From positions 1 through 64,000 of the forward strand of contig NZ_JAVRIC010000023.1 in assembly GCF_031846245.1 (NCBI RefSeq): 64,000 nt of DNA, written 5' to 3'. Position numbers and translations under genes: made by a program. The DNA comes from Banduia mediterranea (lineage in GTDB: Bacteria; Pseudomonadota; Gammaproteobacteria; Nevskiales; Nevskiaceae). The notes below the pieces were generated by a model. The model did not search any database and was not told where the DNA came from. It saw only the letters and a list, made by a program, of their open reading frames with translations. The stretch's first letter is position 1; each line of letters opens with the position of its first letter. This document shows positions 28,058-63,913 of this stretch, one piece after another.

Positions 28058-30223
28058 CTAGACCAGCGCCGCCACCTCTCTGTACAGCCTTCGGAGATGC
28101 CCGTCAGACATGTCCAGGATCGGTTCATACATGAAAGAGTTCAGGTGAATATTCTCTGGCGTCATGAGGGCCACACGCTGCAGGACCTTGATCGTCTTCA
28201 GCTCGGTGCCGAACAGTTCCCGGAACTTCTTCAACAGCTTTGGTGTCTGGTTCGCGTCGATGCCCGCGACGAAGGCCGGATCGTTGATGCGCTCGACCAT
28301 GAAGCGCTCGGCGGTGAGCCGGATCGACATGGCAAGCACGATCTTGTTCTCGAAGTTGATCCCCTCGGCAGCCTTCAGGCATTCGCCGGCCTCATGGTCA
28401 ATGAGAGTCGCAACAGGTTTTGTGCCGTCGGTTGAAGCAACGTTTTGGCCGAACAGCCTGTTGAAGATCACATCCAGGTCAGAAATCGTGATCTGATCGG
28501 AGTCAGCCTTCCAGTGTAGCAGCGACGTCAGTTTGACGAAATCAGGGTCGGCTGCATCCTTTGTATATTCAATGAGATTGCGCATGAAGGGGATGCAGGA
28601 AATCTTTTTCTTCGACTCAGCAGCGAAGTTTGGCTTCCAGTCTTTGACGAAGACGTTCTGAATGCCAGCGGCTCGCTCAAGCACTAAGCCCGCTGCAGTC
28701 TTCGACGCCATGAAGCAATCCGGGTACCGGACAAACCGGCTCTGAATAGTCCGATAGAAGTCAAAGTTGTGGGTGAGTATGATCTGCTTGAAATGGGGAT
28801 CTTCAGCAATGTCCATCAGGTACTGAATGATGGCGTACTTGTTCTTGTAGTCGAACGAATCCGCAATGTCATCGACGATGATGAGCGTCTCCTGCTTCGC
28901 CTCCTTCCGTACTTCGATTTCGAAGAGGATGTTCAGCACGTAGAAGGCCCTCTTTTCACCCGTGCTAAGGGCCTGCATAAGTGCGTTGCGGTCAACGGAC
29001 GCCGTATCACCGCCGTCTTCGAATGTAAAGCCGAGGTTTAGCATCGGGTCCTGACCGAGGATTACGGACAGCCGGTTAGTTGCCTCCAGCTTGAACGGTA
29101 CGAAGAAGCGGTCGTTGAAGATGTCGATAACCTCTTCCCACTGCGTGCGCTCCTTCGCTGCCTGCTCTTCGATCTCTTTGCGTCTGGCCTGCGCTGCCTG
29201 GTACTTGTTCAGCAAGTCCTGAAACGGCTCGAAGCGCGCCTTCAGGTAGGATTTCCAGATGTCCTCTTTGAAGGCCGGTATGTTGCCAAGTCGTACCAGC
29301 AGTTCTTCATGGTTCTGCAGGTAGGCTTCGAAATCGCGGACCGTGACGTTCTTCTGGATAAGCTTGTCGAGTTTCGCGAACTTCTTCTTCAGGTCCCTAT
29401 CATTGGAGATCGCATCCTTCTCTTTTGCGATCAGTTCTTCGAGTTCCTTCTGGCTAGTGACCTCCAGTTTAGTGTCGGCGTTCAGGATGACGGAGTGCTT
29501 CGCATCAAAGAAGCCATTGTCTGCCAGCTGTTTTGCGACCGTCGTGGCGTTGTAGTAGTTGAATGTGCCCTTCTTGAAGTAGGTCGATGCGGCCAACAGT
29601 TCGTTGTACTTCTTGATGTAGTCCTGGATGGCAGTCTTCGCCTCGTCCGTGGCGAGCAGGGCAAGCACCTTGTCGTCGAAGATCACGTCGTAGGTGACTG
29701 TTGCGAGCGAGGAGTCGGACATCGCGGCAACTTCCTCCTTGATGCGGTTCAGCGCAACATAGAATTGGTCGTCACGTGCTGTGAAGATGGACGACAGCTC
29801 CTTTTCGAGGTCCTTTTTGGAGCCTGACTGCTCCTTGAGCGCATTCAGTAAGGTATCTTTTGCCGCGTCGATATCGGCATGGAGAGCTTCGTACTCTTTT
29901 CGTAGTGCGGGGTTGACCAGCAGGGTTGATGTCTTTGCGGAGTGCCCCAGGACCTCGTCATACGGGCGGACAACAAGTACGCTTTCCTTGGGCAGATCAG
30001 CGCCGGCCTCGTCCTTGATTTCTCGTTTGCACGCCCGCGCCGGGAAGATGCGATCCTTGGAAGCGGCGCCGTCTGCAACATCCTGGAAGGTCTGCGCTAG
30101 CGAAGACTTCATAGAGCCGTTAGGCGCATAGATGGCACAGGCCTTGGCTTTGGAGAAGTCAAACTGGACCTGCAGCTTCTTGATGCCGTAGCAGCTTTCC
30201 AGATCGATGTTCACTGTTTTCAC
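28058..30223 (-). CDS. SMC/RloC-like defence ATPase
   Basis: A 721-residue P-loop protein. GTG at 30223 is preceded by AAGGA. The divergent Walker A is YAPNGSMKSS (residues 32-41). Long lysine/glutamate-rich coiled coils follow (about 90-380), then an ABC-type signature STGEKRAFYVLNILFEI and Walker B TLIIVDDIADSFDYKNK with ILTHNFDFYRTI. The C-terminal 200 residues (to MYEPILDMSDGHLRRLYREV) are unlike DNA-repair SMC proteins. The layout recalls the ATPases of RloC/PrrC-type and AAA_13 families. The gene is clearly AT-richer than its neighbours. It starts 10 bases after vsr, so it looks like the last gene of the methylase-McrBC operon. No nuclease motif is recognised. Confidence 0.72.
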   Translation of the reverse strand: MKTVNIDLESCYGIKKLQVQFDFSKAKACAIYAPNGSMKSSLAQTFQDVADGAASKDRIFPARACKREIKDEAGADLPKESVLVVRPYDEVLGHSAKTSTLLVNPALRKEYEALHADIDAAKDTLLNALKEQSGSKKDLEKELSSIFTARDDQFYVALNRIKEEVAAMSDSSLATVTYDVIFDDKVLALLATDEAKTAIQDYIKKYNELLAASTYFKKGTFNYYNATTVAKQLADNGFFDAKHSVILNADTKLEVTSQKELEELIAKEKDAISNDRDLKKKFAKLDKLIQKNVTVRDFEAYLQNHEELLVRLGNIPAFKEDIWKSYLKARFEPFQDLLNKYQAAQARRKEIEEQAAKERTQWEEVIDIFNDRFFVPFKLEATNRLSVILGQDPMLNLGFTFEDGGDTASVDRNALMQALSTGEKRAFYVLNILFEIEVRKEAKQETLIIVDDIADSFDYKNKYAIIQYLMDIAEDPHFKQIILTHNFDFYRTIQSRFVRYPDCFMASKTAAGLVLERAAGIQNVFVKDWKPNFAAESKKKISCIPFMRNLIEYTKDAADPDFVKLTSLLHWKADSDQITISDLDVIFNRLFGQNVASTDGTKPVATLIDHEAGECLKAAEGINFENKIVLAMSIRLTAERFMVERINDPAFVAGIDANQTPKLLKKFRELFGTELKTIKVLQRVALMTPENIHLNSFMYEPILDMSDGHLRRLYREVAALV

Positions 30224-30233
30224 ATCCGATTCC

Positions 30234-30725
30234 TTATATGCAATGTTTTGTCGTGCATTGTTGCATCGGGCTGCGGCGCGCAATTTCTAGCCACGGCAAG
30301 CCTGGAACTTGAATGAAGGTGGCAGCGCGACCAAGCACCGCATTTTCCGCGCGACGCTGAGGCCCGCGGAGCGCGCATTCCCAGATCACGAGTACACGCC
30401 AGCCGTCGGTCTGCAGCGCTTCGACCGCCTTGCGGTCGCGCGCAGCGTTCGCAGCCAGCTTAGCCCGCCAGAAATCCGGTCGCGTCGCGGGCAGCTTCGA
30501 CAGCGCACAGCCATGAGCGTGCCAAAAGCAGCCGTGGATGAATACGACGGTGTTGTACTTCGGGAAGACCAGATCAGGCCTGCCGGGAAGCGACCGGTTA
30601 TGCAGCCGGTAGCGCAGTCCCCGCGCATGCAAGCCGCGACGGATCAGCATCTCGGGCTTCGTGTCTTTGCCCTTGATGCGGCTCATATTGAGCTGCCGCT
30701 GTTCGGGCGTGAGCACGTCGGCCAT
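30234..30725 (-). CDS. vsr: Very short patch repair (Vsr) endonuclease
   Basis: The 163 residues start MADVLTPEQRQLNMSRIKGK and follow Vsr closely: KDTKPEMLIRRGLHARGLRYRLH, LPGRPDLVF with the metal-binding aspartate, and VVFIHGCFWHAHGC with the two catalytic histidines. Vsr nicks 5' of the T in T:G mismatches created when 5-methylcytosine deaminates, so it normally accompanies C5-cytosine methylases. That partner is encoded in this operon. It abuts the stop of the McrC-like gene and precedes the ATPase by 10 bases. Confidence 0.93.
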   Translation of the reverse strand: MADVLTPEQRQLNMSRIKGKDTKPEMLIRRGLHARGLRYRLHNRSLPGRPDLVFPKYNTVVFIHGCFWHAHGCALSKLPATRPDFWRAKLAANAARDRKAVEALQTDGWRVLVIWECALRGPQRRAENAVLGRAATFIQVPGLPWLEIARRSPMQQCTTKHCI

Positions 30726-32387
30726 TCACGCACCCGCCCCAGCGTCTGCCACGATGGTGCGCAGGCAGGATCTCAGCTCTTCGCTCAGCATGCCGGGCCG
30801 CAGTGTCACCGCGCCGAAGCGGAACTTCTCGCGGTACTCCGGATGAAAGAGCCGGCCCGGTATCGGCGTAGCCTTGAAGTCGGACTGCAGTCCTGCCGGA
30901 ACATGCGGCGTCAGCAGATAAGCGGCGGTCACGATGCCTTCGGTCCGGCCGCTTGCCACCTCTTGCACCAGCGCATCCCGGTAGGTGTGGATCGAATTCA
31001 GGGCGTCATTGAGACCATCGTTGATGCGGTACTTCGCATCGAGCACGATCACGCGCCGCTCCGGTCCGCCCAGGTCCATGCCCGCCAGCACGACATCGGG
31101 AACCATCGTCCGGCTGTAGCTCCCCTCGCGGCTGTCCTCGACCCAGTATTCGCGGTACTGTCGCTGGAAGCACAAGACTCGGTTGCTGTCGATTGGGACG
31201 GTGATGGCGCCAGTCGCGATTGTCACGCTGCCACCTGCTTCGCCAAGGAACAGGTTGCTCAGGTCCACGCCCCTGGCGTCATATTCCTCGACGGCGGCGC
31301 GCAGCAGGCGCAGGAAACACCACAGCTCGTACAACTCATAGGTCCGGGCGAGCGGCATCTGCAGAAAGTCGCCGAATAGCGCGGCGAGCCCCAGATTCAT
31401 GTCCTGCCAGAGCCGGTAGAAGCGCTGATAGACCGGGTCATTGCGGAACAGCGACGACATGCGCAGTAGTGCCGGTCCTTCGCCGACGTCTGTCATGAAG
31501 CTGGCCGCTGAAGCATCATTGAGCCGGCGGGCGATACGACGGGTTCGTCCAGCCCAGCTTCCGGCCGTGGTGATGATCTCGGAGTCCTCGGGGGCGCCCG
31601 CTTTGGCCAGCAGCTCGGCGACGCCGCCGAGCCACGCTGCCCACGACCGCAGGCATGCCTTAATCTGACGGTGCTCCGGGATGTCCACGCTGTTCCGGCG
31701 TTGTCGCAGCTTGATGTGCGCCGGCAGGTGGCCCTTCAGGGGCGCTGGCAGGCGCGACGGTGTGACGGTCTCGGTTCGGATTACACCTGAGCGAAAGGAC
31801 TTGATGATCTCCGGGCCGGTAGCGCGTTTGGCGCGGTGCACCGGCACGGTGATGTCCTCGGCACGCAGATAGTGCCGCGGCGCGTGGGCGATCGCTTCGA
31901 CCGCGGCAACGATGGCGTCTGCCCGCGACCGCAAGAATTCGAGGCGAGCCAGTGGCGGCGGGCGGTTGCCTGGCTGGCGCGCGATCCCCTTGCGAAACGC
32001 GCTCAGCGAGAAGAGGGCAAAGGTGTCTTCGAGGATTTCGCGCACCATCGCGTCGAAGTCGTCGCGCGTGAGCTTACACAGGTCGGGATCGGTCGTGACC
32101 TCGAAGCGGCGCGTCCCGACGCCCGGCACGCGCAGCTCGGCTTCGACCATGCCGGCATGAAAACCTGGCTGCCAGCGCCAGCGGGCATTGCTGGGCTCAC
32201 GTGACCGCAGCGCCTCGACCGGCGCATCGTCGATCAGCAGATCGGCGGCAAGCGCGTCGTCGCTGTCGCGCAGCTCAAAGAGATAGGACGCCCCTTCCCG
32301 CACGGCGCCGGGCGGCACCGGATCCGGCGTGGGCCAGACCTGCCATGCCGGTCCGCCGCATTCCGCCTGGATGTAGAGCGCCGTCAC
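30726..32387 (-). CDS. DUF2357/McrC-like restriction nuclease subunit
   Basis: The 553 residues include a DUF2357-like N-terminal region and a C-terminal PD-(D/E)xK nuclease core with VPDVVLAGMDLGGPERRVIVLDAKYRIN: the Asp of PDVVL and the DAK triad of VLDAKYR. Such proteins pair with McrB-type motor ATPases to form two-subunit restriction complexes, as in McrBC and LlaJI-like systems. The McrB-like gene ends only three bases upstream, which supports this. Both are made from one message with the methylase. Target site and modification preference are unknown. Confidence 0.83.
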   Translation of the reverse strand: MTALYIQAECGGPAWQVWPTPDPVPPGAVREGASYLFELRDSDDALAADLLIDDAPVEALRSREPSNARWRWQPGFHAGMVEAELRVPGVGTRRFEVTTDPDLCKLTRDDFDAMVREILEDTFALFSLSAFRKGIARQPGNRPPPLARLEFLRSRADAIVAAVEAIAHAPRHYLRAEDITVPVHRAKRATGPEIIKSFRSGVIRTETVTPSRLPAPLKGHLPAHIKLRQRRNSVDIPEHRQIKACLRSWAAWLGGVAELLAKAGAPEDSEIITTAGSWAGRTRRIARRLNDASAASFMTDVGEGPALLRMSSLFRNDPVYQRFYRLWQDMNLGLAALFGDFLQMPLARTYELYELWCFLRLLRAAVEEYDARGVDLSNLFLGEAGGSVTIATGAITVPIDSNRVLCFQRQYREYWVEDSREGSYSRTMVPDVVLAGMDLGGPERRVIVLDAKYRINDGLNDALNSIHTYRDALVQEVASGRTEGIVTAAYLLTPHVPAGLQSDFKATPIPGRLFHPEYREKFRFGAVTLRPGMLSEELRSCLRTIVADAGAGA

Positions 32388-32390
32388 GGG

Positions 32391-34055
32391 TCACCGCATC
32401 GCCTGGAAGGAGCCGAAGTCGTCGAGATCGCCCAGCAACCTGCGGACGAAGGCCTGCGCGCGGGGCAGGCCCTCGCAGGCCTTGTCGAGGCTCGTCAGCA
32501 GCGTGCGCTGTCGCTCGGCGCCGCGCAGTTTCACCAGCACCTTCTGTACGAGCAGCTGGTCGGTGACATCGGCCGCTGCGCTCTTGAGATGCGCCGCATC
32601 AAAGGCGTGATAGCGGACGAACTCTTCGATGAGCCGGTAGCCGAAGCCTAGCTCGTACTGCTGCATCAGGCTGTGAATTTCGATCAGCTTTGTTTCGGAC
32701 GCGGCGCGCGCATCCCTCAGCTCAGGGAATCGGGCTTCGAGCGAGGCCAGGAAGCCCGGCACATCGATCGTGGACATATCGATCACCGATGCGCGGTCGA
32801 GGACCTTGTCGCTGACCGGGTTCGTGGTTTCATCGACGTTAATCGTGCCGATGATGAACAGGTTCGCGGGCAACGGCAGCTCGGCCCGGATGCTGGCACC
32901 GGTCGTACCTTCGAGTGGTACGCTGTTGGAGTGCAGCTGCAGCGGGCCCGCGGTCTCCATGCGGGACAGCACGTCCGACAGGTAATACTCGACGCGCGCC
33001 AGATTCATTTCATCGAGGATCACAAAGACCGGTGACTCGCGGTGCGCGGTCGCGACCAGCACCGCTTCGAGGAAGGTTGGCACGACGTAGCGGTTCGTCA
33101 GTACGTCAAAATAGCCGGTCAGCCCGGTCGGGTCGGTCCACTCCGGTCGCACAGGACACTCGAAGATCAGAGGATCGTCTGCCGTGTTCGAGGTCTGGCC
33201 GTGCACGGCCCTGGCGTACTTGAGGGCGAGCTGTGTTTTGCCGGTGCCGGACAGGCCGGACAGGATCACGAAGTGCTTGTGCGGCAGGAAATTCAGCGCC
33301 GCATGGAAGCGCTTCACCTCTCCATTCGGATAGTGGCCACCCAGGGCTTTCACCGCAGTTTCGATATCCGCAACTGGGATGCTGGCCGGCATGCGGCGCA
33401 TCTCAGGGCTGAGCGTCGCCGTGTCGGTCCAGACTGACAGCTCGTGAATCTTCTCGCGACCGGCCAGGGTACCAAGCCATCCGATGAACTCGCGCGCCAG
33501 CAGACTGCGCCGCGCAGACGCGGTTGGTGGATGAAGGGCGACAACGATCTCATCAGGTTCAACAGCGGGTCCGAAAGGCGCTCGTTCGAAATCCAGACTG
33601 TTCCAGAAGCCAGAGTTGCGCATCCACAGCAGCCCGCCTTCAGCCAAGTAGACTGGAACAAGGTTGTTACGGTTACTGTACTTGAAGGGGTTGGTGGCCT
33701 CGTTGCCTTCGTCCTCGCCGTCTTCGCCTTCTTCACTGCCGGCCCCCGCCTTTGCGGCAGCGCCGAGCCTCTTCATTTCTGCGAGACGCGCCAAGAACTT
33801 GTCCTTGTCCTTACGAACCAGCACGGCGAAGTACACCTCGTCCTCCGGCGGGAACTTCATCACCGTCGCGATGATGAAAGCCTCCGCGTCGTCGTTTGCA
33901 CTGTTCAGGTTGGCTACGCCGATCTGAACACCACCTTCGACGACCTTGGCGCTGTTGGAGACCCCGAACAGCTTGTTGGTGCGGGTGGCCTTAGTTGCCC
34001 GGAAGTGCTTTTGAGCTTCCTTAAGAAACTGCTGCTGTCGCTCGACGAGGTTCAT
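32391..34055 (-). CDS. McrB-like AAA+ restriction motor subunit
   Basis: The 554-residue protein has a variable N-terminal half, likely the DNA-recognition part, with an acidic insert SEEGEDGEDEGNEA near residue 105. The AAA+ core follows: Walker A LSGLSGTGKTQLALKYARAV, Walker B VFVILDEMNLARVEYYLSDVLSR, and IIGTINVDETTNPVSDKVLDRA as the McrB-type sensor segment. McrB proteins are GTP- or ATP-driven motors that bring their nuclease partner to the site. The ATG lies 35 bases inside the methylase gene, so the two are translationally coupled, and the nuclease subunit follows directly. Confidence 0.88.
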   Translation of the reverse strand: MNLVERQQQFLKEAQKHFRATKATRTNKLFGVSNSAKVVEGGVQIGVANLNSANDDAEAFIIATVMKFPPEDEVYFAVLVRKDKDKFLARLAEMKRLGAAAKAGAGSEEGEDGEDEGNEATNPFKYSNRNNLVPVYLAEGGLLWMRNSGFWNSLDFERAPFGPAVEPDEIVVALHPPTASARRSLLAREFIGWLGTLAGREKIHELSVWTDTATLSPEMRRMPASIPVADIETAVKALGGHYPNGEVKRFHAALNFLPHKHFVILSGLSGTGKTQLALKYARAVHGQTSNTADDPLIFECPVRPEWTDPTGLTGYFDVLTNRYVVPTFLEAVLVATAHRESPVFVILDEMNLARVEYYLSDVLSRMETAGPLQLHSNSVPLEGTTGASIRAELPLPANLFIIGTINVDETTNPVSDKVLDRASVIDMSTIDVPGFLASLEARFPELRDARAASETKLIEIHSLMQQYELGFGYRLIEEFVRYHAFDAAHLKSAAADVTDQLLVQKVLVKLRGAERQRTLLTSLDKACEGLPRAQAFVRRLLGDLDDFGSFQAMR

Positions 34056-51053: not shown

Positions 51054-51104
51054 CCCGATAATATTAAACAGTAACAAGTGCCTTTGAGCATCAAAGGAGA
51101 ACCA

Positions 51105-52058
51105 ATGGCTTTATCCAATGCACAACTGCTTTGGTACGACAGCAACGTCCTGCGCCTGCCCCAGGACAAGCGCACCGAATACCACGCCCAGGTCGACCGG
51201 CTCATCTCCGAGCTCCGCAAACACATGGCTGATTTCGATGAGCTGACCATCAAGAAGGTCATGAAGGCAGGGTCTTTCGCGAAATTCACGATTCTCCGGA
51301 AGACCAACGAAGACCCGGTCGATGTCGACGTGATGTTCTATCTCACCGGCGATAACGTCAGCCACAAAACCTTCAAAGACCTGAGCGATGTGATCTACGC
51401 GAAGCTGGCGAAGATCTACCCTACCAAGAAGGTAGAGGATTTCGAGCTGCAGCGTCGGGCTGCCACGGTGCAGTTCGTCGGCTCGGGCCTCGCGGTCGAT
51501 ATCGTCCCGGTCCTTCAAGACCCCAAGCGGCCCGACTATGGCTGGCAGTTCGATATCCAGGACGGTTCGAAGAACGAAACCTGCGCCCCGTGCCAGATCC
51601 AGTTCGTCGTCGACCGCAAGAAGCAGGATGCGCACTTCCGGACCCTGGTCCGCCTGGCCAAGCGGTGGAAAAACTACACGACGCCCTCGGGCCTCAAGTC
51701 CTTCCACATCGAGCTGATCATGGCGCATCTGCTCGAAGTCGATGGATCAGGCGGAAGCATCGAAAAGCGATTTCGCGACTTCCTGCTTTACGTCGCGCAA
51801 TCCGAACTCAAGGAGCGGGTCGACTTCGTTGAGAACCGCAAGTCACCGGCGTTTTCGTTTGCTGATCCGGTAGTGGTGATCGATCCCGTGAATAACAGCA
51901 ACAACGTGACGTCGCGAATCTCCGAGACGGAACGCAAGGAGATTTGCCAAACCGCCCAAAACTCGTGGGAGGTCGCCTGCCGCGCCTCGGAAGACGATGA
52001 TCTCGACGCCTGGAAGGAGGTCTTTGGGCCCCGGTTCAAGGTAAAGGAGGAGGAATGA
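51105..52058 (+). CDS. cdnC: CBASS CD-NTase (cyclic oligonucleotide synthase)
   Basis: ATG at 51105 follows AAAGGAGA, so the GTG at 51078 is not used. The 317 residues have the polymerase-beta-like core: GS at 56-57 (KAGSFAKFTIL), metal-binding DVD at 73-75 (VDVDVMFYL) and the third Asp at 132 (AVDIVPVL). A helical substrate-binding domain follows. These enzymes make cyclic di- or trinucleotides when phage infection is sensed. Association with HORMA and TRIP13-like genes is typical of clades C and D, so the symbol is provisional. It overlaps the HORMA gene by four bases. Confidence 0.9.
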   Translation: MALSNAQLLWYDSNVLRLPQDKRTEYHAQVDRLISELRKHMADFDELTIKKVMKAGSFAKFTILRKTNEDPVDVDVMFYLTGDNVSHKTFKDLSDVIYAKLAKIYPTKKVEDFELQRRAATVQFVGSGLAVDIVPVLQDPKRPDYGWQFDIQDGSKNETCAPCQIQFVVDRKKQDAHFRTLVRLAKRWKNYTTPSGLKSFHIELIMAHLLEVDGSGGSIEKRFRDFLLYVAQSELKERVDFVENRKSPAFSFADPVVVIDPVNNSNNVTSRISETERKEICQTAQNSWEVACRASEDDDLDAWKEVFGPRFKVKEEE

Positions 52059-52546
52059 GCACTACCCAGACCAAGACGACGACCTTCACCAGCGAAGATA
52101 TATCGAAGGTAATCCGCAGCTTCACCACCGAGCTCAAAATGATCGCGTCGAGCACGCGGGGCATGACGGAAGCCGAAGCCGCGAAATATGGCCATGACAT
52201 CGAGTATCTCGCGCAGCATAGCTACCTGAGTCTGGTCGATGTCACCTTGTACAGCAATGGCAAGGAGGAGAATGCCGTCCAGTACACGGTTCGCGATGGG
52301 ACCAAGGACCTGACGCCATCTAAGCCCGGCGGCGTTATGTGGCGCAGGCTGGAGAACCCGAAACTTCACGTCACTGTGCGTTTGACGATCGCCTACACCC
52401 CCCAGGTCGAGCAGGCGGTCAAGGCGAAGCTTTATATCAACTGGCAGACCACCAACTTCGATCTCAGCCATCCGAACCTCAAGAAGAAGGATGGCCGCGA
52501 CTTCACCAGCAACGGCTATGGCATTAGCAGGACGGATTTCGAATGA
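52055..52546 (+). CDS. cap7: CBASS HORMA-domain activator Cap7
   Basis: The 163-residue single-domain protein starts TQTKTTTFTSEDISKVIRSF, has SLVDVTLYSN and LHVTVRLTIAYTPQVEQAVKAKL, and ends DFTSNGYGISRTDFE, the pattern of bacterial HORMA proteins. In type III CBASS the HORMA protein closes around a peptide and then activates the CD-NTase. It is translated by ATGA overlaps with the genes on both sides. One HORMA gene is present, where some loci carry two. Confidence 0.88.
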   Translation: MSTTQTKTTTFTSEDISKVIRSFTTELKMIASSTRGMTEAEAAKYGHDIEYLAQHSYLSLVDVTLYSNGKEENAVQYTVRDGTKDLTPSKPGGVMWRRLENPKLHVTVRLTIAYTPQVEQAVKAKLYINWQTTNFDLSHPNLKKKDGRDFTSNGYGISRTDFE

Positions 52547-53433
52547 GCAGCACGGTTTTCGAGAGCCGGACGGTTCTCCCGAATGAACTCATCACTGATC
52601 GGGCCAAGACCCTACTGGGCTTCGGGTCGCTCTACGACCGGGTGAGCAAGCAGCTGCAACTGATCCTGCATGCGGACAGGGTAGAGGCCTGGAGCCGCCA
52701 GAAGCACCACAAGTCACTTGCGATCGTCGGACTGCTTCGCGGCCAGTATCCCTTTGCCATCTTCTACGGTGACGTGGGTACTGGCAAAACGGCCATGGCC
52801 GAAGCCGTTGGCAACAAGATCGCGATCGACTCCGGAACCGAGGACTCGGAGCTTTTTAAGCTCAGCAACCGCGTCCGTGGTAGCGGGAACGTGGGCGAGA
52901 TGGGGACGCTGATCACCGAGGCTTTTGCGGAGATCAAGAAGGCGATCGGCAAGAATCGGCGTGCCATCCTGGTCATCGATGAGGGCGACTCTCTGGCCGC
53001 GTCACGTAGCCAGCAGCAGAGCCACCACGAGGACAAGGTCGCCGTGAACACGGTGATCCAGGCGATCGATGAATTGCGATCGGCCCGCGGCCGGATCTTT
53101 ACGATCCTATGTACCAACCGGATGTCTGCACTTGATCCGGCTATTATCCGTCGCGCCTCGATCATCGAGCACTTCCAGCGGCCCACCGACGACCAGCGCG
53201 CCGACCTGTTCGAGATGGACTTGGGCGATCTTGAGCTGACGCCCAAGCAGGTGAAGGCGTTGGTCGCCGCAACGGGAGCCAGGGACAAGCAGCCAGCTTG
53301 GACCTACTCCGATATCCGCACCCGCCTATATCCGGCCGCAATCGCACTGGCATATCCGGACGCTGCGCTGACTTTCTCGCATTTCGAGTCCGCGCTTGCA
53401 ACACTGGAACCGTCCCCGGCGCTCGCCGACTAG
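52543..53433 (+). CDS. cap6: CBASS TRIP13/Pch2-like AAA+ ATPase Cap6
   Basis: The 296 residues include Walker A GDVGTGKT (76-83), Walker B AILVIDEGD with D146 and E147, sensor-1 ILCTNRMSALDPAIIRRA, and a helical lid to the end. In type III CBASS this ATPase opens the HORMA protein and so keeps the CD-NTase off until infection. It lacks a long N-terminal domain, as expected for bacterial Trip13. It overlaps the HORMA gene by four bases and is followed after 37 bases by the exonuclease gene. Confidence 0.9.
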   Translation: MSSTVFESRTVLPNELITDRAKTLLGFGSLYDRVSKQLQLILHADRVEAWSRQKHHKSLAIVGLLRGQYPFAIFYGDVGTGKTAMAEAVGNKIAIDSGTEDSELFKLSNRVRGSGNVGEMGTLITEAFAEIKKAIGKNRRAILVIDEGDSLAASRSQQQSHHEDKVAVNTVIQAIDELRSARGRIFTILCTNRMSALDPAIIRRASIIEHFQRPTDDQRADLFEMDLGDLELTPKQVKALVAATGARDKQPAWTYSDIRTRLYPAAIALAYPDAALTFSHFESALATLEPSPALAD

Positions 53434-53470
53434 CTACTGAAAGCAACCTTGTTTCCATCAAGATCCAATA

Positions 53471-54019
53471 ATGAGTAAAAAGTACGAGGTCTTCATCTCG
53501 GTGGACATCGAGGCTGCAGGACCGATCCCAGGCGAGTACAGCATGCTCACCGTGGGCGCCTGCCTCGTGGAAGATCCAGCCAGGATGTTTTCCTGTGCCA
53601 TCAAACCGGTCAATGACCGCTTCGTGCCGCAGGCTCTGGAAGTCACCGGCTTGTCGATGGCCAAGTTGGCAGAAGAGGGCCTCGATCCGGAGATGGCAAT
53701 GCGGCAGTTCGAGGCTTGGATCGCTTCGACCCTTGATGGTCAGGGCTCGCCCGTATTCGTGGGTCTCAATGCCCCTTTCGACTGGTCTTTCGTCAACTAC
53801 TACTTTCACCGGTTCCTAGGGAGGAATCCGTTCGGTTTCACAGCACTCGACATCAAGGCTGTTTACATGGGCGCAACCGGATGCTCATGGCATGACACGC
53901 GATCGAGCGAAATCGCACGGCGTGTTCATCCGAACTCCAAAGGTGACCACAACGCCCTTCGTGACGCGCTTTACCAGGCTGAGCTTTTTCGTCTGGTGCG
54001 CAGCATGAAGCTTTCCTGA
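53471..54019 (+). CDS. cap18: CBASS-associated DEDDh 3'-5' exonuclease Cap18
   Basis: The 182 residues form a DEDDh exonuclease: DIE with D12 and E14 (FISVDIEAAGP), D104 in NAPFDWSF, and H160 with D165 in GDHNALRDAL. It is the size of the accessory Cap18 seen in many type III CBASS loci. Its role in defence is not settled; it may trim nucleic acid or shape the signal. It has its own start 37 bases after cap6 and is the last gene of the locus. Confidence 0.85.
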   Translation: MSKKYEVFISVDIEAAGPIPGEYSMLTVGACLVEDPARMFSCAIKPVNDRFVPQALEVTGLSMAKLAEEGLDPEMAMRQFEAWIASTLDGQGSPVFVGLNAPFDWSFVNYYFHRFLGRNPFGFTALDIKAVYMGATGCSWHDTRSSEIARRVHPNSKGDHNALRDALYQAELFRLVRSMKLS

Positions 54020-54190: not shown

Positions 54191-54215
54191 GTCCGCTTTG
54201 GGCTGATTTCAGCCC
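54191..54215. repeat. GTCCGCTTTGGGCTG motif with hairpin, right edge of the CBASS insert
   Basis: GTCCGCTTTGGGCTG (54191-54205) is identical over 15 bases to the motif at 59799-59813. Its right half differs: GGGCTGA and TCAGCCC form a hairpin at 54200-54215 that could also end the converging transcripts of cap18 and traV. Confidence 0.6.
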
Positions 54216-57915: not shown

Positions 57916-58407
57916 TCACTCGGATCGGGTCGGCGCGGCGGGCGGACCGAGCTGCCGTGCGACGCGCCGGGCATATGCCTCCTGGCGCTCGCGAGCAGAG
58001 GGCGAGCGCGCCGTCCCCGCGTTGTAGGCGCCGACGGCCTGCCAGGTGTAGCCCAGCCGGTGGATGTTCCCCGCCAGCACCCAGGCGCCGACCCAGATCG
58101 AAGTGCAGGGCTCGTAGAGCGACTCCGCTGCGATACCCATCTCGCGCAGGGCAGGGAGCCAGCGCGAATTGATCTGCATCAGGCCGATATCCCAACTCCC
58201 ATCCGGGTTGAGGTGAACGGCAAGTGGATCGAGACTGCTCTCGGTTCGGGCGATGGCGATCAGCAGTTCTGGGGCGATGCCGTAGTGCTGCGCCGCGGCG
58301 CCCAAGCAGTGGCACCACATCGACGAAGACTCGCCCGCGTGCACACCCGCGGAGTACGCGGCGATTGTTGCTGCCCGGAGCAGTTCTCGAAGTATGCGCT
58401 GCCACAA
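57916..58407 (-). CDS. Lytic transglycosylase (VirB1-like)
   Basis: The 163 residues include a signal-like start (LRAATIAAYSAGVHAGE) and an SLT domain with catalytic Glu in LLIAIARTESSLDPLAV, then WDIGLMQINSRWLP and WQAVGAYNAGTA. Such enzymes cut peptidoglycan so the transfer channel can cross the wall. It is the upstream-most gene of the tra block, 94 bases before traA, on the same strand. A short tail rich in proline and arginine ends it. Confidence 0.9.
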   Translation of the reverse strand: MWQRILRELLRAATIAAYSAGVHAGESSSMWCHCLGAAAQHYGIAPELLIAIARTESSLDPLAVHLNPDGSWDIGLMQINSRWLPALREMGIAAESLYEPCTSIWVGAWVLAGNIHRLGYTWQAVGAYNAGTARSPSARERQEAYARRVARQLGPPAAPTRSE

Positions 58408-58567: not shown

Positions 58568-58666
58568 CCAGCATGATTTTGTTTCGGCGTCATAGACTAG
58601 CTACTCGCGAGTCGCTAGCCTTTCGGAGCGAGCTGCTCCCAATAATGTTGTAACGGAGGGGTTTGC

Positions 58667-59746
58667 ATGGCTTCCGAAATCGATGAGTTGAAAAGCAAAC
58701 TGGAACTGAGCTTCCGATTGGTGGACACCGCCTATTTATTTCGAAATGAACAGGTAAATGATTCCGCCAAGCGCACAGTAATGCGAGTTCAGCTGATACA
58801 GGTAGACAACCTGCTGGTGATGGTGCCCAGGCTGAAGAATCTGATCTTTGGCAGCAGACAGAGCAGTGATCGCACTGCGCTCGAAGAGGCGATTGACGAG
58901 CTGAAAAAGAGTTACGTCAACTCCTACGACCTCATCAGAGACAAGGTCGCAGCTCACGGCCAACAATTGGACGCAATGTCCTGCTTTTACGCCTGGGGCG
59001 ACCTGGATTATTCGACGACGGAAGTGCTGTACGGCGACATCAAACATCTTCAGTCTTTGGTCGAGGCGGCGCTAGACCATCGCTTCCCCACGATCCCGGA
59101 CTACGCGCCTTTGGATATTGCCGGCAACGCGTACCTTTCTGTGCCGACCGGGGCAGAGATCCGGCTCGACCGCTTTGCGGCCACTCGGCCCAACACGGGC
59201 TACATGCTCCCGCTGTGCTCTTCGCAGGACAAGGCCCAGATCGTCCTTTCAATTCTGGATTTTCTGAACGTGGATTTTGCAATCACCGCGATCGTGGATG
59301 ATCCGAAGACGCTTTACAGACGGTTTCTATTTGAGATTGGTTGGTTGATGGCCGTGATCGACTTGTGTTCACTCATCGATAACCTGTTCGTCGATGACAC
59401 TTACGGTAAGTCCCTATTAAGCGAGTGGAAAGACGCCGGTGTGGTAGGGCACAGCGACTTGCTTCGCTTAGAGGGAGCGCGCGACGTGGCGCTTGAGAAC
59501 GCCCTCCGCTTGTCTCGAAACAAATTGGGGGCGCACATCGATCGGACAGAGGATATCCAGGTGCTTCTGGATAGATATTTCTCTCTGGACCTAGGAAAAA
59601 TAGATCGCTACTTCGGCATGCTGATTGATGGCTTCTACGCTGCGTGCAGGAAGGATTTCCGCACCAGGATGTTTCTTATCCACACCAGCCCCATCACTCG
59701 CATGGTGAACATCTCAGGCGAAGGTCGGCCGTTCGACGACAGATGA
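58667..59746 (+). CDS. Unknown cargo protein with two HEPN-like R-x5-H motifs
   Basis: The 359-residue protein starts MASEIDELKSKLELSFRLVD. It is mostly helical, with no signal peptide or membrane segment. Two similar motifs are present: RDKVAAH (R91-H97) and RNKLGAH (R284-H290). R-x4-6-H is the active-site signature of HEPN ribonuclease domains, and RDKxxAH or RNKxxAH forms occur in abortive-infection proteins such as AbiU2-like ones. The gene is on the strand opposite to the tra block and is visibly AT-richer. Related palindromes flank it. I do not recognise its family; a role in phage defence is inference. Confidence 0.75.
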   Translation: MASEIDELKSKLELSFRLVDTAYLFRNEQVNDSAKRTVMRVQLIQVDNLLVMVPRLKNLIFGSRQSSDRTALEEAIDELKKSYVNSYDLIRDKVAAHGQQLDAMSCFYAWGDLDYSTTEVLYGDIKHLQSLVEAALDHRFPTIPDYAPLDIAGNAYLSVPTGAEIRLDRFAATRPNTGYMLPLCSSQDKAQIVLSILDFLNVDFAITAIVDDPKTLYRRFLFEIGWLMAVIDLCSLIDNLFVDDTYGKSLLSEWKDAGVVGHSDLLRLEGARDVALENALRLSRNKLGAHIDRTEDIQVLLDRYFSLDLGKIDRYFGMLIDGFYAACRKDFRTRMFLIHTSPITRMVNISGEGRPFDDR

Positions 59747-59798
59747 CCGATGCATCTCTCGCTAGCAAAAACATAGCTTGCTGCCACACAACTCCACC

Positions 59799-59822
59799 GT
59801 CCGCTTTGGGCTGAAAGCGGAC
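59799..59822. repeat. GTCCGCTTT...AAAGCGGAC palindrome, right edge of the 58667 cargo
   Basis: Perfect 9-base arms GTCCGCTTT and AAAGCGGAC surround the loop GGGCTG. It is the clearest member of the cargo-edge group. On the plus strand GAAAAAG follows, and it may also terminate the cargo gene. Confidence 0.65.
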
Positions 59823-59864
59823 GCGAAAAAGAAGAGGGTCGCGTGGCGACCCTCGTATTATCGA

Positions 59865-62162
59865 CTACAACAGCAACTGTTTCGCCAAGGCGACCTCGAT
59901 CGAGTCGTCGTCCTGGTTCAGCACATCGAGCCCGGTGTCGGGCATGTCGCCGGACGTGGACTGGCTGACGGCGATCTTCCTGGCCATCAGCTGCAGGCAG
60001 GTGATCTGCGTCGTACCGCCGTAGCCGAAGAAGTGCACGTCGACTGGCTGCTTCTGGCCGATGCGCCAGGACCGGCGTGCGGCCTGCTGCAGGGTGTAGA
60101 CGTTGTAGCCGGTCTGCAGGAAGGCGATCGTCGGAAAGTCGAGCAGGTCCAGACCGGTCTTGACCAGTTCCGGGTTCGTGATGAGGACATCCACGCCACG
60201 ATCCACCTGTTCGAAGATCCAGTCCTCGCGCCGGCTGGTGTCGATGCTGGCGCGGAGCACGGCGGCCCGCAGGCCCTCGGCTTCGCACATCGCCTTGAGT
60301 CGCGACGTGGTGTCGCGCGTTCCGGAGTAGACGCTGTAGACCAGCACCCGCCGCCCCTGGGCCTTCTCGGCCTTCTCGGCCTTGCACAGGGCGATCACTT
60401 CGGTCTCCTTCGGCATCGCGTCTGCGCCGTCGAAGATCGCCGGCACGTGCGCGAGCACGGACCGCGTGCGGGGATGCCGCACGACTTCCTCGCGAAACGC
60501 GCAGTCGGGCCATTCCAGCAGCACGTTGAGGACGACGCCGAGCAGGCTCTTGTCGCCGTGACGCAGCGCCTCCTTCATCGCGCCGGTCAGGGTGAGGCGG
60601 AGACCGTGGTAGGCCTCCGATTGATCGGTGCGCATCGGGACGTCGTGAAAGTGCTCCAGGTACGGCGGCAGCACGCCTTCGCCGATATCCCGGAGCTTGA
60701 GGAACGCCGTGAACGGCAGCACGTAGCGCGCGATGCCCTGCGGCCCAAAGCCCGGTGCCTTGACCGTGGTGACGCTGACCTTGCGGCCTCGTGCGGTCTT
60801 GTGCGCGCTGCCTTCGGTTTCCTTGTAGATGTCCTTCAGCACGCCGTGATGGCGCATGAAGCTCATGGCCGCCGCGCCGAGCGAACCGCGCACGTAGCGG
60901 TAGCCATCCTCGATCATCCGTTCCGGCATGATCCGCCACAGCAGGTGGAAGAGGTCATCAGCGTAGCCGCCCATCAGGGTGCCGGTGAGCAGCACGACCT
61001 TGCGGACCTTGGCGGCCAGCACGGCCATCGCCTGACCCTGGGCCGAGCCGTCGTTCTTGTACTCGTGGCCTTCGTCCACGATCAGCAGGTCGAAGAAGCC
61101 ATCCGGCAGGTAGCGCTTGATGAACTCCGTCGCCTGGTAGCCGCCCTGGCCGAACGAGAATTCCATCGTCGCCATGGCCTTTTCCATGCGCCGGGCCTGG
61201 CGGTCCGAGAACACCAGTTCGCCGTCCTCGTCCATCAGGTTGACGAACTCGTAGACGTTGTCCTCGATCATGCCCGCCAGGGGGCCTTCGCCGAAGCGGC
61301 CGATCAGCCTCTCGGCGGTCGCCGGCCCGATCGTCGGGATCTGGCACAGCGAGGACTTGAGCAGTTCGCGCCGCGGCTGCGGCGCCCCGTTGGGACGCAT
61401 CAGCGTCCAGAGCGGCGAAGCGCAGCCATCACACTTGAGGCGCTTGTCGACCGGGAAGGTTTCCACGGTGTAGGGCATCTGATCGGGATCGAGGGTCGCG
61501 ATGCCGCAGTGTGGACAGACGACGATGGCTTGCAGCTGCGGCTCGCCGACGGGTTCGCCCTGGTCATCGGTGCGCTGGATGTGGCGGCGTCGTACGGCGT
61601 AGGCCGGCTTCCAGTGGAAGCCGAGGCGCATGCGCACGCGGCCGAGCACGAAGAATTCGGGTCCGTCGTGACCCGGATGCGCCGGATCGCGCAACTGCAA
61701 CAGCTTGCGCAGCGTGTCCGGGCCGTTGAGCACGGTGACCCGGGCGCCGGTCACGGTTTCGAGGATTTCCCGCCGCCATTTGTAGACCAGGTGCGGCGGC
61801 GAGATGACGAGGAAGCGGCGGTAGCCTTCGCAGCGATGCAGCACCGCGGCGATGGCGATCGCCATCATGGTCTTGCCGGTGCCCATTTCCGCATTGACGA
61901 CGGCGGCGGGTTGGCCGGCGTCGACGAGCAGGCGGGTGACGGCCTGGACAACGCCGCGCTGTGCGGCGAACGGCTTGCGCTTCAGGCCTTCCATCACCGC
62001 GTCGCGGCGAGCGTCGGGGGTTCCGTCGTAGACCGGTGGATTCTGAGCTGTGACGGCAGCCAGCAGGCTGTCGCCGAAGTCCGAGACGAACTCGGGTAGG
62101 GGAATGACGGCGGCAGACGGATCGTCGGCCAGCGTGTCGGGAACAGGTGTTTCGAGTGACAT
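59865..62162 (-). CDS. SNF2/DEAD-like helicase of the element
   Basis: The 765 residues follow GGAG by seven bases. The helicase core has motif I AEMGTGKTMMAIAIAAVLHR, motif II as DEGH in LLIVDEGHEYKND, motif III VVLLTGTLMGGYADDLFHLLW and the second lobe with VYSVYSGTRDTTSRL, DVLITNPELVKTGLDLLDFPTIAFLQTGYNVYTLQQAARRSWRIGQ. The last block is a Q-x-x-R-R-x-x-R-I-G-Q motif VI typical of Swi2/Snf2 proteins. A zinc-like CPHCG...CDGC insert lies near residue 230. Such helicases occur in many conjugative elements upstream of tra genes; their role in maintenance or transfer is not known. Confidence 0.85.
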   Translation of the reverse strand: MSLETPVPDTLADDPSAAVIPLPEFVSDFGDSLLAAVTAQNPPVYDGTPDARRDAVMEGLKRKPFAAQRGVVQAVTRLLVDAGQPAAVVNAEMGTGKTMMAIAIAAVLHRCEGYRRFLVISPPHLVYKWRREILETVTGARVTVLNGPDTLRKLLQLRDPAHPGHDGPEFFVLGRVRMRLGFHWKPAYAVRRRHIQRTDDQGEPVGEPQLQAIVVCPHCGIATLDPDQMPYTVETFPVDKRLKCDGCASPLWTLMRPNGAPQPRRELLKSSLCQIPTIGPATAERLIGRFGEGPLAGMIEDNVYEFVNLMDEDGELVFSDRQARRMEKAMATMEFSFGQGGYQATEFIKRYLPDGFFDLLIVDEGHEYKNDGSAQGQAMAVLAAKVRKVVLLTGTLMGGYADDLFHLLWRIMPERMIEDGYRYVRGSLGAAAMSFMRHHGVLKDIYKETEGSAHKTARGRKVSVTTVKAPGFGPQGIARYVLPFTAFLKLRDIGEGVLPPYLEHFHDVPMRTDQSEAYHGLRLTLTGAMKEALRHGDKSLLGVVLNVLLEWPDCAFREEVVRHPRTRSVLAHVPAIFDGADAMPKETEVIALCKAEKAEKAQGRRVLVYSVYSGTRDTTSRLKAMCEAEGLRAAVLRASIDTSRREDWIFEQVDRGVDVLITNPELVKTGLDLLDFPTIAFLQTGYNVYTLQQAARRSWRIGQKQPVDVHFFGYGGTTQITCLQLMARKIAVSQSTSGDMPDTGLDVLNQDDDSIEVALAKQLLL

Positions 62163-62250
62163 GGTGCATCTCCTGTGAATGGGCGGTCCACGCAGACGCG
62201 AGTGCCCGTTCGGGCACTGGCGTCCCGCGGGATATGGGTGAGAAGGGCGT

Positions 62251-62886
62251 CTACGCCGCCTGGCGCAGAGACGCGGGTTGGTCGGTGTCGAGCGTCAAAC
62301 GGCCTTCGCGAACGAGCCGTGAGATTTCGACCTCGACCGCGTCGCTGCCGAGGTCGACGAACACGGCATCGACCTGAATGCCGCGCAGCGGACGAATCCA
62401 GTCGTTCTGCCGGAAGACGTCGAGCACGACTTCGTTCCAGTGGTCGAGCAGCGGCAGGTGGGTGACGCTGCGGACCAGGTGCCAGAGCGCAGCCTCGCCG
62501 TGCGTGGCATTGCGTTGCAGCAGCAGCGCACGCCGGTTGGCGCGGTCCGGCTCCACCGCGAGCCGGTCATACAGCCAGAGCTGGACGAGGTTGCCGAACA
62601 GGTTCTTCGGCGGCAGCCGGCCGCTGAGCTTGTCGGTCGTCGGCATGCGATCGAAGTGGACGGTTTCCGTGCCCTGCGGTCCTTCGACGTGCAGGGAACG
62701 CAGGCCGCCTTCCTCGACGGGTACGGACAGCCGGGCGAGCAGTTCCTGGATCGCGGTGTCGCGGCCCCAGAGCGAGCAGAACAGCAGGCCGCCGCGCTCG
62801 TCGCGCAGCAGCGCATCGGCGAAGACGCCGGGCAGTTCAACGATGGGGAGCAGCTCCGGCGCGGCCGGAGGCAGTTCAGTGTTCAT
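62251..62886 (-). CDS. Conserved element protein of unknown function
   Basis: The 211 residues from ATG at 62886 (GGAG seven bases before) read MNTELPPAAPELLPIVELPG and later HFDRMPTTDKLSGRLPPKNLFGNLVQLWLYDRLAVE. No membrane, signal or catalytic motif is evident. It lies 88 bases upstream of the helicase on the same strand and probably shares its transcript. I do not recognise the family. Confidence 0.72.
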   Translation of the reverse strand: MNTELPPAAPELLPIVELPGVFADALLRDERGGLLFCSLWGRDTAIQELLARLSVPVEEGGLRSLHVEGPQGTETVHFDRMPTTDKLSGRLPPKNLFGNLVQLWLYDRLAVEPDRANRRALLLQRNATHGEAALWHLVRSVTHLPLLDHWNEVVLDVFRQNDWIRPLRGIQVDAVFVDLGSDAVEVEISRLVREGRLTLDTDQPASLRQAA

Positions 62887-63068
62887 GTGGAAATCTCCAT
62901 GAGCAGGGATAGGCGAAGGCGGCCGTGCCGGTGGGGCATCGGTCCGCCAATCGAGGGGTGGAAGCAGGATCGAGAAAGCGCCGGAAAGCGTTTCTGCCGC
63001 TGAGCCGATCCGAAGCGGCGAGATGCGACGTGACCCACGTCGCCAGGGAGCAAGCGTCTTTCGGCAAC

Positions 63069-63088
63069 GGTCCGGCGCAGGCCGGACC
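63069..63088. repeat. Hairpin in the 245-base gap upstream of the unknown gene
   Basis: GGTCCGGC and GCCGGACC are perfect 8-base arms around GCAG. The gap 62887-63131 otherwise shows nothing I can support as a gene. The hairpin could end the transcript of the upstream small gene. Confidence 0.5.
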
Positions 63089-63131
63089 GCAGCGGAAAAG
63101 CGCCTCGACAGGCGTCAGGAAGTGAGGTCGT

Positions 63132-63356
63132 CTACCCGACGGGATAGCCGTGGCTTTCGAGTACCTGGATCATGTGTGCGCCTTCCCAGGAACCGGGTCG
63201 GCGCACGGCCAGGGCAACGTCTTCGAGCAGCATCGCGGCGAGCCGCGGCAGGTCGAGTCGACCGTGCGTATTGGCCTCGCTCTGGTTCATGCGCTCCAGC
63301 GCTTCCTCGATGAGCGTGTTGTCGTCGTCCGAAATCTCGACGTGGATTCTGATCAC
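63132..63356 (-). CDS. Small acidic protein of the element
   Basis: GTG at 63356 lies seven bases after AGAGGA and opens VIRIHVEISDDDNTLIEEAL. The 74 residues have a beta strand followed by helices and end ESHGYPVG. There is no recognisable catalytic motif. It follows the RadC-like gene by 35 bases on the same strand, so the two probably share a promoter. Function is unknown. Confidence 0.62.
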   Translation of the reverse strand: MIRIHVEISDDDNTLIEEALERMNQSEANTHGRLDLPRLAAMLLEDVALAVRRPGSWEGAHMIQVLESHGYPVG

Positions 63357-63391
63357 GGTGTGGTCCTCTTGTGGTGATGCCTGGAAGGGCG

Positions 63392-63913
63392 CTACAGCCA
63401 GCCCCGCTCGGAGAAGGACACGCCGCCCTCGGCCGAGACGACGAGGTGGTCGAGCACGCGGATGTCGATGACGGCGAGTGCGGCCCTGAGGCGCTCGGTG
63501 AGGGCGCGGTCGGCTGCGCTGGGTTCGGGGCGGCCCGAGGGGTGGTTGTGCGCGAACAGGACCGCGGCGGCGTTGTGCCTCAGCGCGGCCTTGACCGCTT
63601 CGCGCGGATAGACGGCGGCGCCGTCGATCGTGCCGGTGGCCAGTGTCTCCACCGCGATCAGGCGATGCTGGCTGTCGAGCCACAGGCAGTCGAAGCGCTC
63701 ATGGTCGAGCGCGCCGAGGCGGCTGCGCAGGAAGTCCATGACCGCGGACGGACTGGACATGACGCCGAGGCGCCGGCACCGCTTCAGCAGGATGGCCTCG
63801 GCGGCGGACAGGATGGTGTCGTAGGTCAGCGGACCCTGGACGATGTAGCGTCCCTGGGTATCGCGCACGAGCGAAGGTCGAACCGCATCGGGGCGGCGGT
63901 TGGATGCAGGCAT
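63392..63913 (-). CDS. radC: RadC-family JAB-domain protein
   Basis: The 173 residues contain the JAB/MPN metalloprotease-like motif LFAHNHPSGRPEPSAAD, preceded by LGALDHERFDCLWLDSQHRLIAVETLATGTIDGAAVYPREAVKAAL and followed by RVLDHLVVSAEGGVSFSERG. These are the conserved RadC blocks. The N-terminal HhH part of chromosomal RadC is absent or reduced, as usual in RadC copies carried by mobile elements (YeeS-like). Its role there is not established; an anti-restriction or recombination role is often proposed. Confidence 0.9.
   Translation of the reverse strand: MPASNRRPDAVRPSLVRDTQGRYIVQGPLTYDTILSAAEAILLKRCRRLGVMSSPSAVMDFLRSRLGALDHERFDCLWLDSQHRLIAVETLATGTIDGAAVYPREAVKAALRHNAAAVLFAHNHPSGRPEPSAADRALTERLRAALAVIDIRVLDHLVVSAEGGVSFSERGWL

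Follow-up and report, generated by a model that had tools for sequence, protein, structure and literature searches.

HEPN ribonucleases usually operate as dimers or as components of larger systems. Three hallmarks characterize the HEPN domain: an R-x4-6-H motif ending helix 3, a polar residue (N, D or H) after the motif arginine, and an acidic residue in helix 2 (PMC3710099). In Csm6, the paired R-x4-6-H motifs are supplied by two chains (PMC4748810), and in Cas13 a single chain supplies both HEPN motifs, with an in-cis site (PMC8776769). Here we analyse a gene for a 359-aa protein with two R-x5-H motifs, located in a window of 64,000 nucleotides that constitutes the whole stretch of Banduia mediterranea DNA under study, and compare it with these systems and with AbiU2 (PF18734), a Lactococcus abortive-infection protein.

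A cargo gene in a conjugative element

The gene is an intact open reading frame with a good ribosome-binding site, and the region around it includes the following features.

58594..58621, no strand assigned: imperfect palindrome of 28 bp, 45 nt upstream of the ATG, a possible operator; unique in the genome
58655..58659, plus strand: ribosome-binding site GGAGG, 7 nt before the ATG, read from the sequence
58667..59746 (stop codon included), plus strand: open reading frame for the predicted tandem HEPN protein, 359 aa, ATG start, from the ORF list
59798..59823, no strand assigned: hairpin CGTCCGCTTT..AAAGCGGACG at the junction of cargo and backbone; 16 nt of it are found again at 54191, past the CBASS cargo
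59834..59854, minus strand: terminator-like hairpin, placed to end the backbone helicase gene and not at a cargo boundary; L012 has a similar hairpin

Both flanking genes lie on the minus strand. To the left is a transglycosylase-like gene (57916-58407), which adjoins TraA, TraL, TraE, TraK and TraB-like genes of an F-type conjugation system, and to the right a large helicase gene (59865-62162). The sequence-only reading had described a solitary, AT-rich cargo gene reversed relative to the backbone, and this description holds on every count: conjugation and helicase genes flank the gene on both sides, its GC content is 53.2% vs ~65% for the backbone, and it is transcribed from the plus strand against the minus strand of the transglycosylase-like and helicase genes. 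The solitary gene constitutes cargo in a variable slot of an F-type conjugative element.

A genome of the same genus carries an element that matches the window over 59808-63661 at 95% identity. This match ends at 59808, inside the 59798-59823 hairpin, and past this point the same-genus genome instead carries genes interpreted as insertion-sequence and copper-resistance genes. A further family member has ~7 kb of other cargo between its helicase and transglycosylase genes, among it the candidate defence genes PDC-M30/M41. Because these two genomes hold different contents in the same slot, the slot can be regarded as a cargo hot spot. In a related element (L030, 380-2560), part of the helicase gene's end is present in duplicate, flanking a cargo gene, which suggests that cargo was inserted at the helicase 3' end.

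The element that carries the gene also encodes a type III CBASS system (51078-54019), likewise on the plus strand vs the minus strand of the backbone, consisting of a cyclase, a HORMA protein, a TRIP13-like ATPase and a DEDDh exonuclease effector. The gene had also been read as lying between the palindromes that delimit other cargo too, a claim that stands only for the right side, where the 16-nt GTCCGCTTTGGGCTGA is common to the 3' side of CBASS. This 16-nt stretch has exactly two copies in the genome: the one at 54191 follows the CBASS cargo and the one at 59799 follows the candidate HEPN gene, and the pair may be a mark of how cargo was inserted; the full hairpin CCGCTTTGGGCTGAAAGCGG (59801-59820) is present as a single copy within the window. 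The rest of the claim falls, since the left palindrome occurs nowhere else in the genome, the regions upstream of the other homologues contain nothing clearly equivalent to it, and the 59834-59854 hairpin reads as the helicase terminator. A second defence cluster (28058-34055), with AT-rich first 2 kb (53% GC), contains an AAA ATPase matching the candidate system PDC-S46 (E=4.5e-284), a Vsr endonuclease and genes read as McrC and McrB.

Two R-x5-H motifs in two helical halves

The homologue set comprises four proteins in all, at 22-43% identity. The L002/L003 homologue is 43% identical to the window protein, and the L005/L006 and L039/L040 homologues, at about 26-27% identity, belong to a different class of the phylum. 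Since the latter two are 86% identical to each other, the set represents three independent lineages. Alignment of the four homologues identifies 56 invariant positions, and the resulting protein features are given below with their coordinates in the window.

58667..59089, plus strand: candidate N-terminal HEPN half, residues 1-141, helices 2-25, 32-61, 67-96, 103-110 and 115-136 (AlphaFold2; Pfam AbiU2)
58805..58807, plus strand: D47, acidic, in N-half helix 2 and 44 residues ahead of R91; no variation among the four homologues
58937..58957, plus strand: motif 1, R91-D-K-V-A-A-H97, at the end of helix 67-96 (R91, D92, A96 and H97 invariant; helix position)
59093..59221, plus strand: poorly conserved linker, residues 143-185, pLDDT 26-42, a candidate hinge or sensor segment (with the alignment)
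59222..59665, plus strand: candidate C-terminal HEPN half, residues 186-333 (low-confidence full-length model; Pfam AbiU2 matches in the C halves of L002 and L005), helices 186-207 and 213-241, short helices 250-256 and 262-270, then 274-290, 297-306 and 309-333 in the full-length model
59378..59380, plus strand: D238, in helix 213-241, 46 residues before R284; D or E in all homologues (alignment)
59516..59536, plus strand: motif 2, R284-N-K-L-G-A-H290, at the end of helix 274-290 (R284, N285, K286, A289 and H290 invariant; helix position)

The sequence-only reading had singled out RDKVAAH (91-97) and RNKLGAH (284-290) as HEPN-like motifs, similar to each other and set at corresponding places in two helical halves, and this proposal is supported. 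Both motifs are found at these positions, and both follow an R-x5-H pattern with a polar residue (D or N) after the arginine. The top similarity between the two halves pairs residues 83-97 with 276-290, that is, the helix running into each motif, and exceeds all 600 column shuffles; HHalign of the N half against the C half revealed no significant similarity. Motif 1 ends helix 67-96 and is followed by the closing helix 115-136 in the AlphaFold model, and motif 2 likewise ends helix 274-290 ahead of the closing helix 309-333, as placed by the full-length model with low C-half confidence. The HEPN-like character of the motifs is supported by their conservation in divergent homologues and by HEPN_AbiU2 (PF18734) being the top Pfam match in 4/4 members (best E=1.2e-4).

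In the sensitive profile search that had been proposed as a check, AbiU2 is the best Pfam family throughout the set. The window protein scores 22 bits vs a curated gathering cut-off of 26.8, with residues 68-127 aligning to HEPN_AbiU2 profile positions 104-163, and the cut-off is reached by none of the three members scored individually; since the Pfam score lies below this curated cut-off, we use the label AbiU2-like and not AbiU2. Residues 61-139 searched alone match Pfam AbiU2 with E=0.0041. In L002 and L005, segments of the C half that take in the second motif match the same family (E=0.01, profile positions 110-140, and E=0.11, positions 118-168), and the stretches of the profile matched in the three proteins overlap. 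HHalign comparison with the AbiU2 alignment scored the N half at 22.6, above all 200 shuffles (maximum 19.0), and the C half at 16.8, inside the shuffled range (maximum 21.0). Matches to aldo-keto reductase/DkgA were also obtained (NCBIfam E=0.002, 17 bits vs a cut-off of 425; PDB E=0.024) and dropped, as they cover a short helical stretch, lie far under the cut-off and are absent with the alignment profile.

AlphaFold2 modelled the N half alone as a helical bundle (pLDDT 82.3, pTM 0.78), with lower confidence around the motif, and the full-length model was poor (pLDDT 54, pTM 0.46). Foldseek searches with the full-length and N-half models returned no match at E<=0.001. Among the N-half matches, the HEPN toxin chains 8yuf, 8xdj and 8xeh appear at ranks 35-49 with non-significant E values of 0.45-0.67, below generic four-helix bundles. 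All three HEPN hallmarks are present in both halves, with helix placement in the C half taken from the low-confidence model, and a HEPN fold is supported as a prediction.

The low Pfam score, the generic four-helix bundles among the Foldseek matches and the weak, spurious aldo-keto reductase matches could also be accommodated by a helical protein unrelated to HEPN that carries the motifs by chance. We consider this very improbable: only 5 per 100,000 shuffled versions of the protein contain R[NDH]xxx[AG]H twice (a rate based on 200,000 shuffles), conservation among the six histidines of the window protein is confined to H97 and H290, and AbiU2 is the best Pfam family for every homologue. The duplicated motifs of the 359-aa protein are more than a chance coincidence.

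The motif arginine is followed by aspartate in the N half and by asparagine in the C half in all four homologues. Because this R-D and R-N assignment never varies, the halves can be regarded as non-equivalent, and their sequences suggest a fixed asymmetric active site. The same inequality, together with a stronger profile match for the N half than for the C half, could instead indicate that only one half is catalytic, that the other serves as a HEPN copy with a structural or regulatory role, and that the whole protein is active as a dimer. Such an arrangement appears quite unlikely, as both arginines and both histidines are invariant in divergent homologues, whereas a non-catalytic copy would usually lose its motif.

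Neighbourhoods of the homologues

The relatives of the 359-aa protein form a rare and so far unnamed family that is also found in mobile or defence DNA. The L006 homologue lies directly after the DISARM genes DrmMI, DrmA and DrmB and before an ABC-three-component pair. In this DISARM-type locus (L006, 130-14124), DrmMI and DrmA are separated by two small genes, and a serine recombinase lies further on. The L040 homologue is located between recombinase genes and PD-Lambda-4_A, and the L003 homologue near TnsA-like (Tn7-type) genes. A search for relatives in plasmids, phages and viral contigs found none. Since both PADLOC and NCBIfam are without any model for the 359-aa protein, annotation pipelines miss the family even beside DISARM, PD-Lambda-4 and CBASS. 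ORF inspection of the four loci identified no recurrent partner gene, and the protein therefore appears to act alone.

HEPN domains are common as toxins (PMC3710099), and the presence of the gene and its relatives on mobile DNA, with an Xre/MbcA/ParS-type antitoxin gene ~1 kb downstream of the L003 homologue, would fit a tandem HEPN RNase that serves mainly in addiction and element maintenance, as a toxin, or in inter-element competition, and not mainly in phage defence. This role seems unlikely given that the window has no antitoxin-sized or MNT-like gene next to this one, that the four loci share no recurrent partner, that the repeats of a type III RNA antitoxin were not found near the gene, and that relatives lie beside defence systems. 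Searches near the gene for tandem repeats and for relevant Rfam matches (type III antitoxin RNA, known RNA families) were negative, and a candidate structured leader scored no better than shuffles. The variable cargo slot and the relatives beside DISARM and PD-Lambda-4 support an anti-phage role and the earlier proposal of a one-gene candidate, with abortive infection as the presumed mode; from its genomic context, the family is very likely defence-related, and the 359-aa protein is probably an anti-phage defence protein of the suicide type.

Proposed mechanism and known systems

Taken together, we favour with reasonable confidence the interpretation of the 359-aa protein as a single-chain, tandem AbiU2-like HEPN RNase with a single active site built from its two halves, used in abortive-infection defence. 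Its two AbiU2-like HEPN domains in tandem would make up a one-chain, metal-independent endoribonuclease, with catalytic R91/H97 and D92 contributed by the N half (~1-141) and R284/H290 and N285 by the C half (~186-333). The halves would pack as an intramolecular pseudo-dimer that brings the two R-x5-H motifs into one active site in cis; HEPN enzymes use paired R-x4-6-H motifs, and an in-cis pair forming one site is the most economical reading. The enzyme would be held off until phage infection, upon which it would cleave cell or phage RNA and stop the infected cell. It would require no dedicated partner gene and would travel as a cargo module in conjugative elements and defence islands. A more specific proposal, which we put forward only tentatively, is that the family is defined by its fixed asymmetric site (R-D...H plus R-N...H), a guide-free, minimal version of Cas13-style pairing that is activated through a hinge and not by dimerisation, and that it constitutes a one-gene anti-phage system. 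With two fixed, non-identical HEPN halves and no partner, the 359-aa protein would be a simple case in which to study how a HEPN enzyme is kept off and then turned on by phage.

Comparison with known systems places the 359-aa protein near several HEPN groups. With HEPN-MNT pairs it shares the predicted HEPN ribonuclease fold, HEPN toxin chains being among the non-significant N-half Foldseek matches, but no nucleotidyltransferase partner gene is found by ORF inspection beside any of the four loci. As in Csm6/Csx1, the site would be built from two R-x4-6-H motifs, which are joined there by dimerisation (PMC4748810), whereas here the halves share one chain, in which no CARF sensor domain was found. 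The likeness to AbiU2 extends to the R-x5-H motif, the N, H or D after the arginine and the alanine before the histidine, and the AbiU2 proteins fetched show R-x5-H spacing equal to that of the 359-aa protein (e.g. IRNNVFAH, IRHKVFAH); AbiU2 is, in contrast, a single-domain protein of about 200-270 aa, with open frames of 208-270 aa among those recovered here, against two motif-bearing halves in 359 aa for the window protein. Unlike Cas13, the window protein is without a guide RNA part, is far smaller at 359 aa and has no Cas13 family match in Pfam, but the two are alike in carrying two HEPN domains per polypeptide, with one in-cis site expected (PMC8776769).
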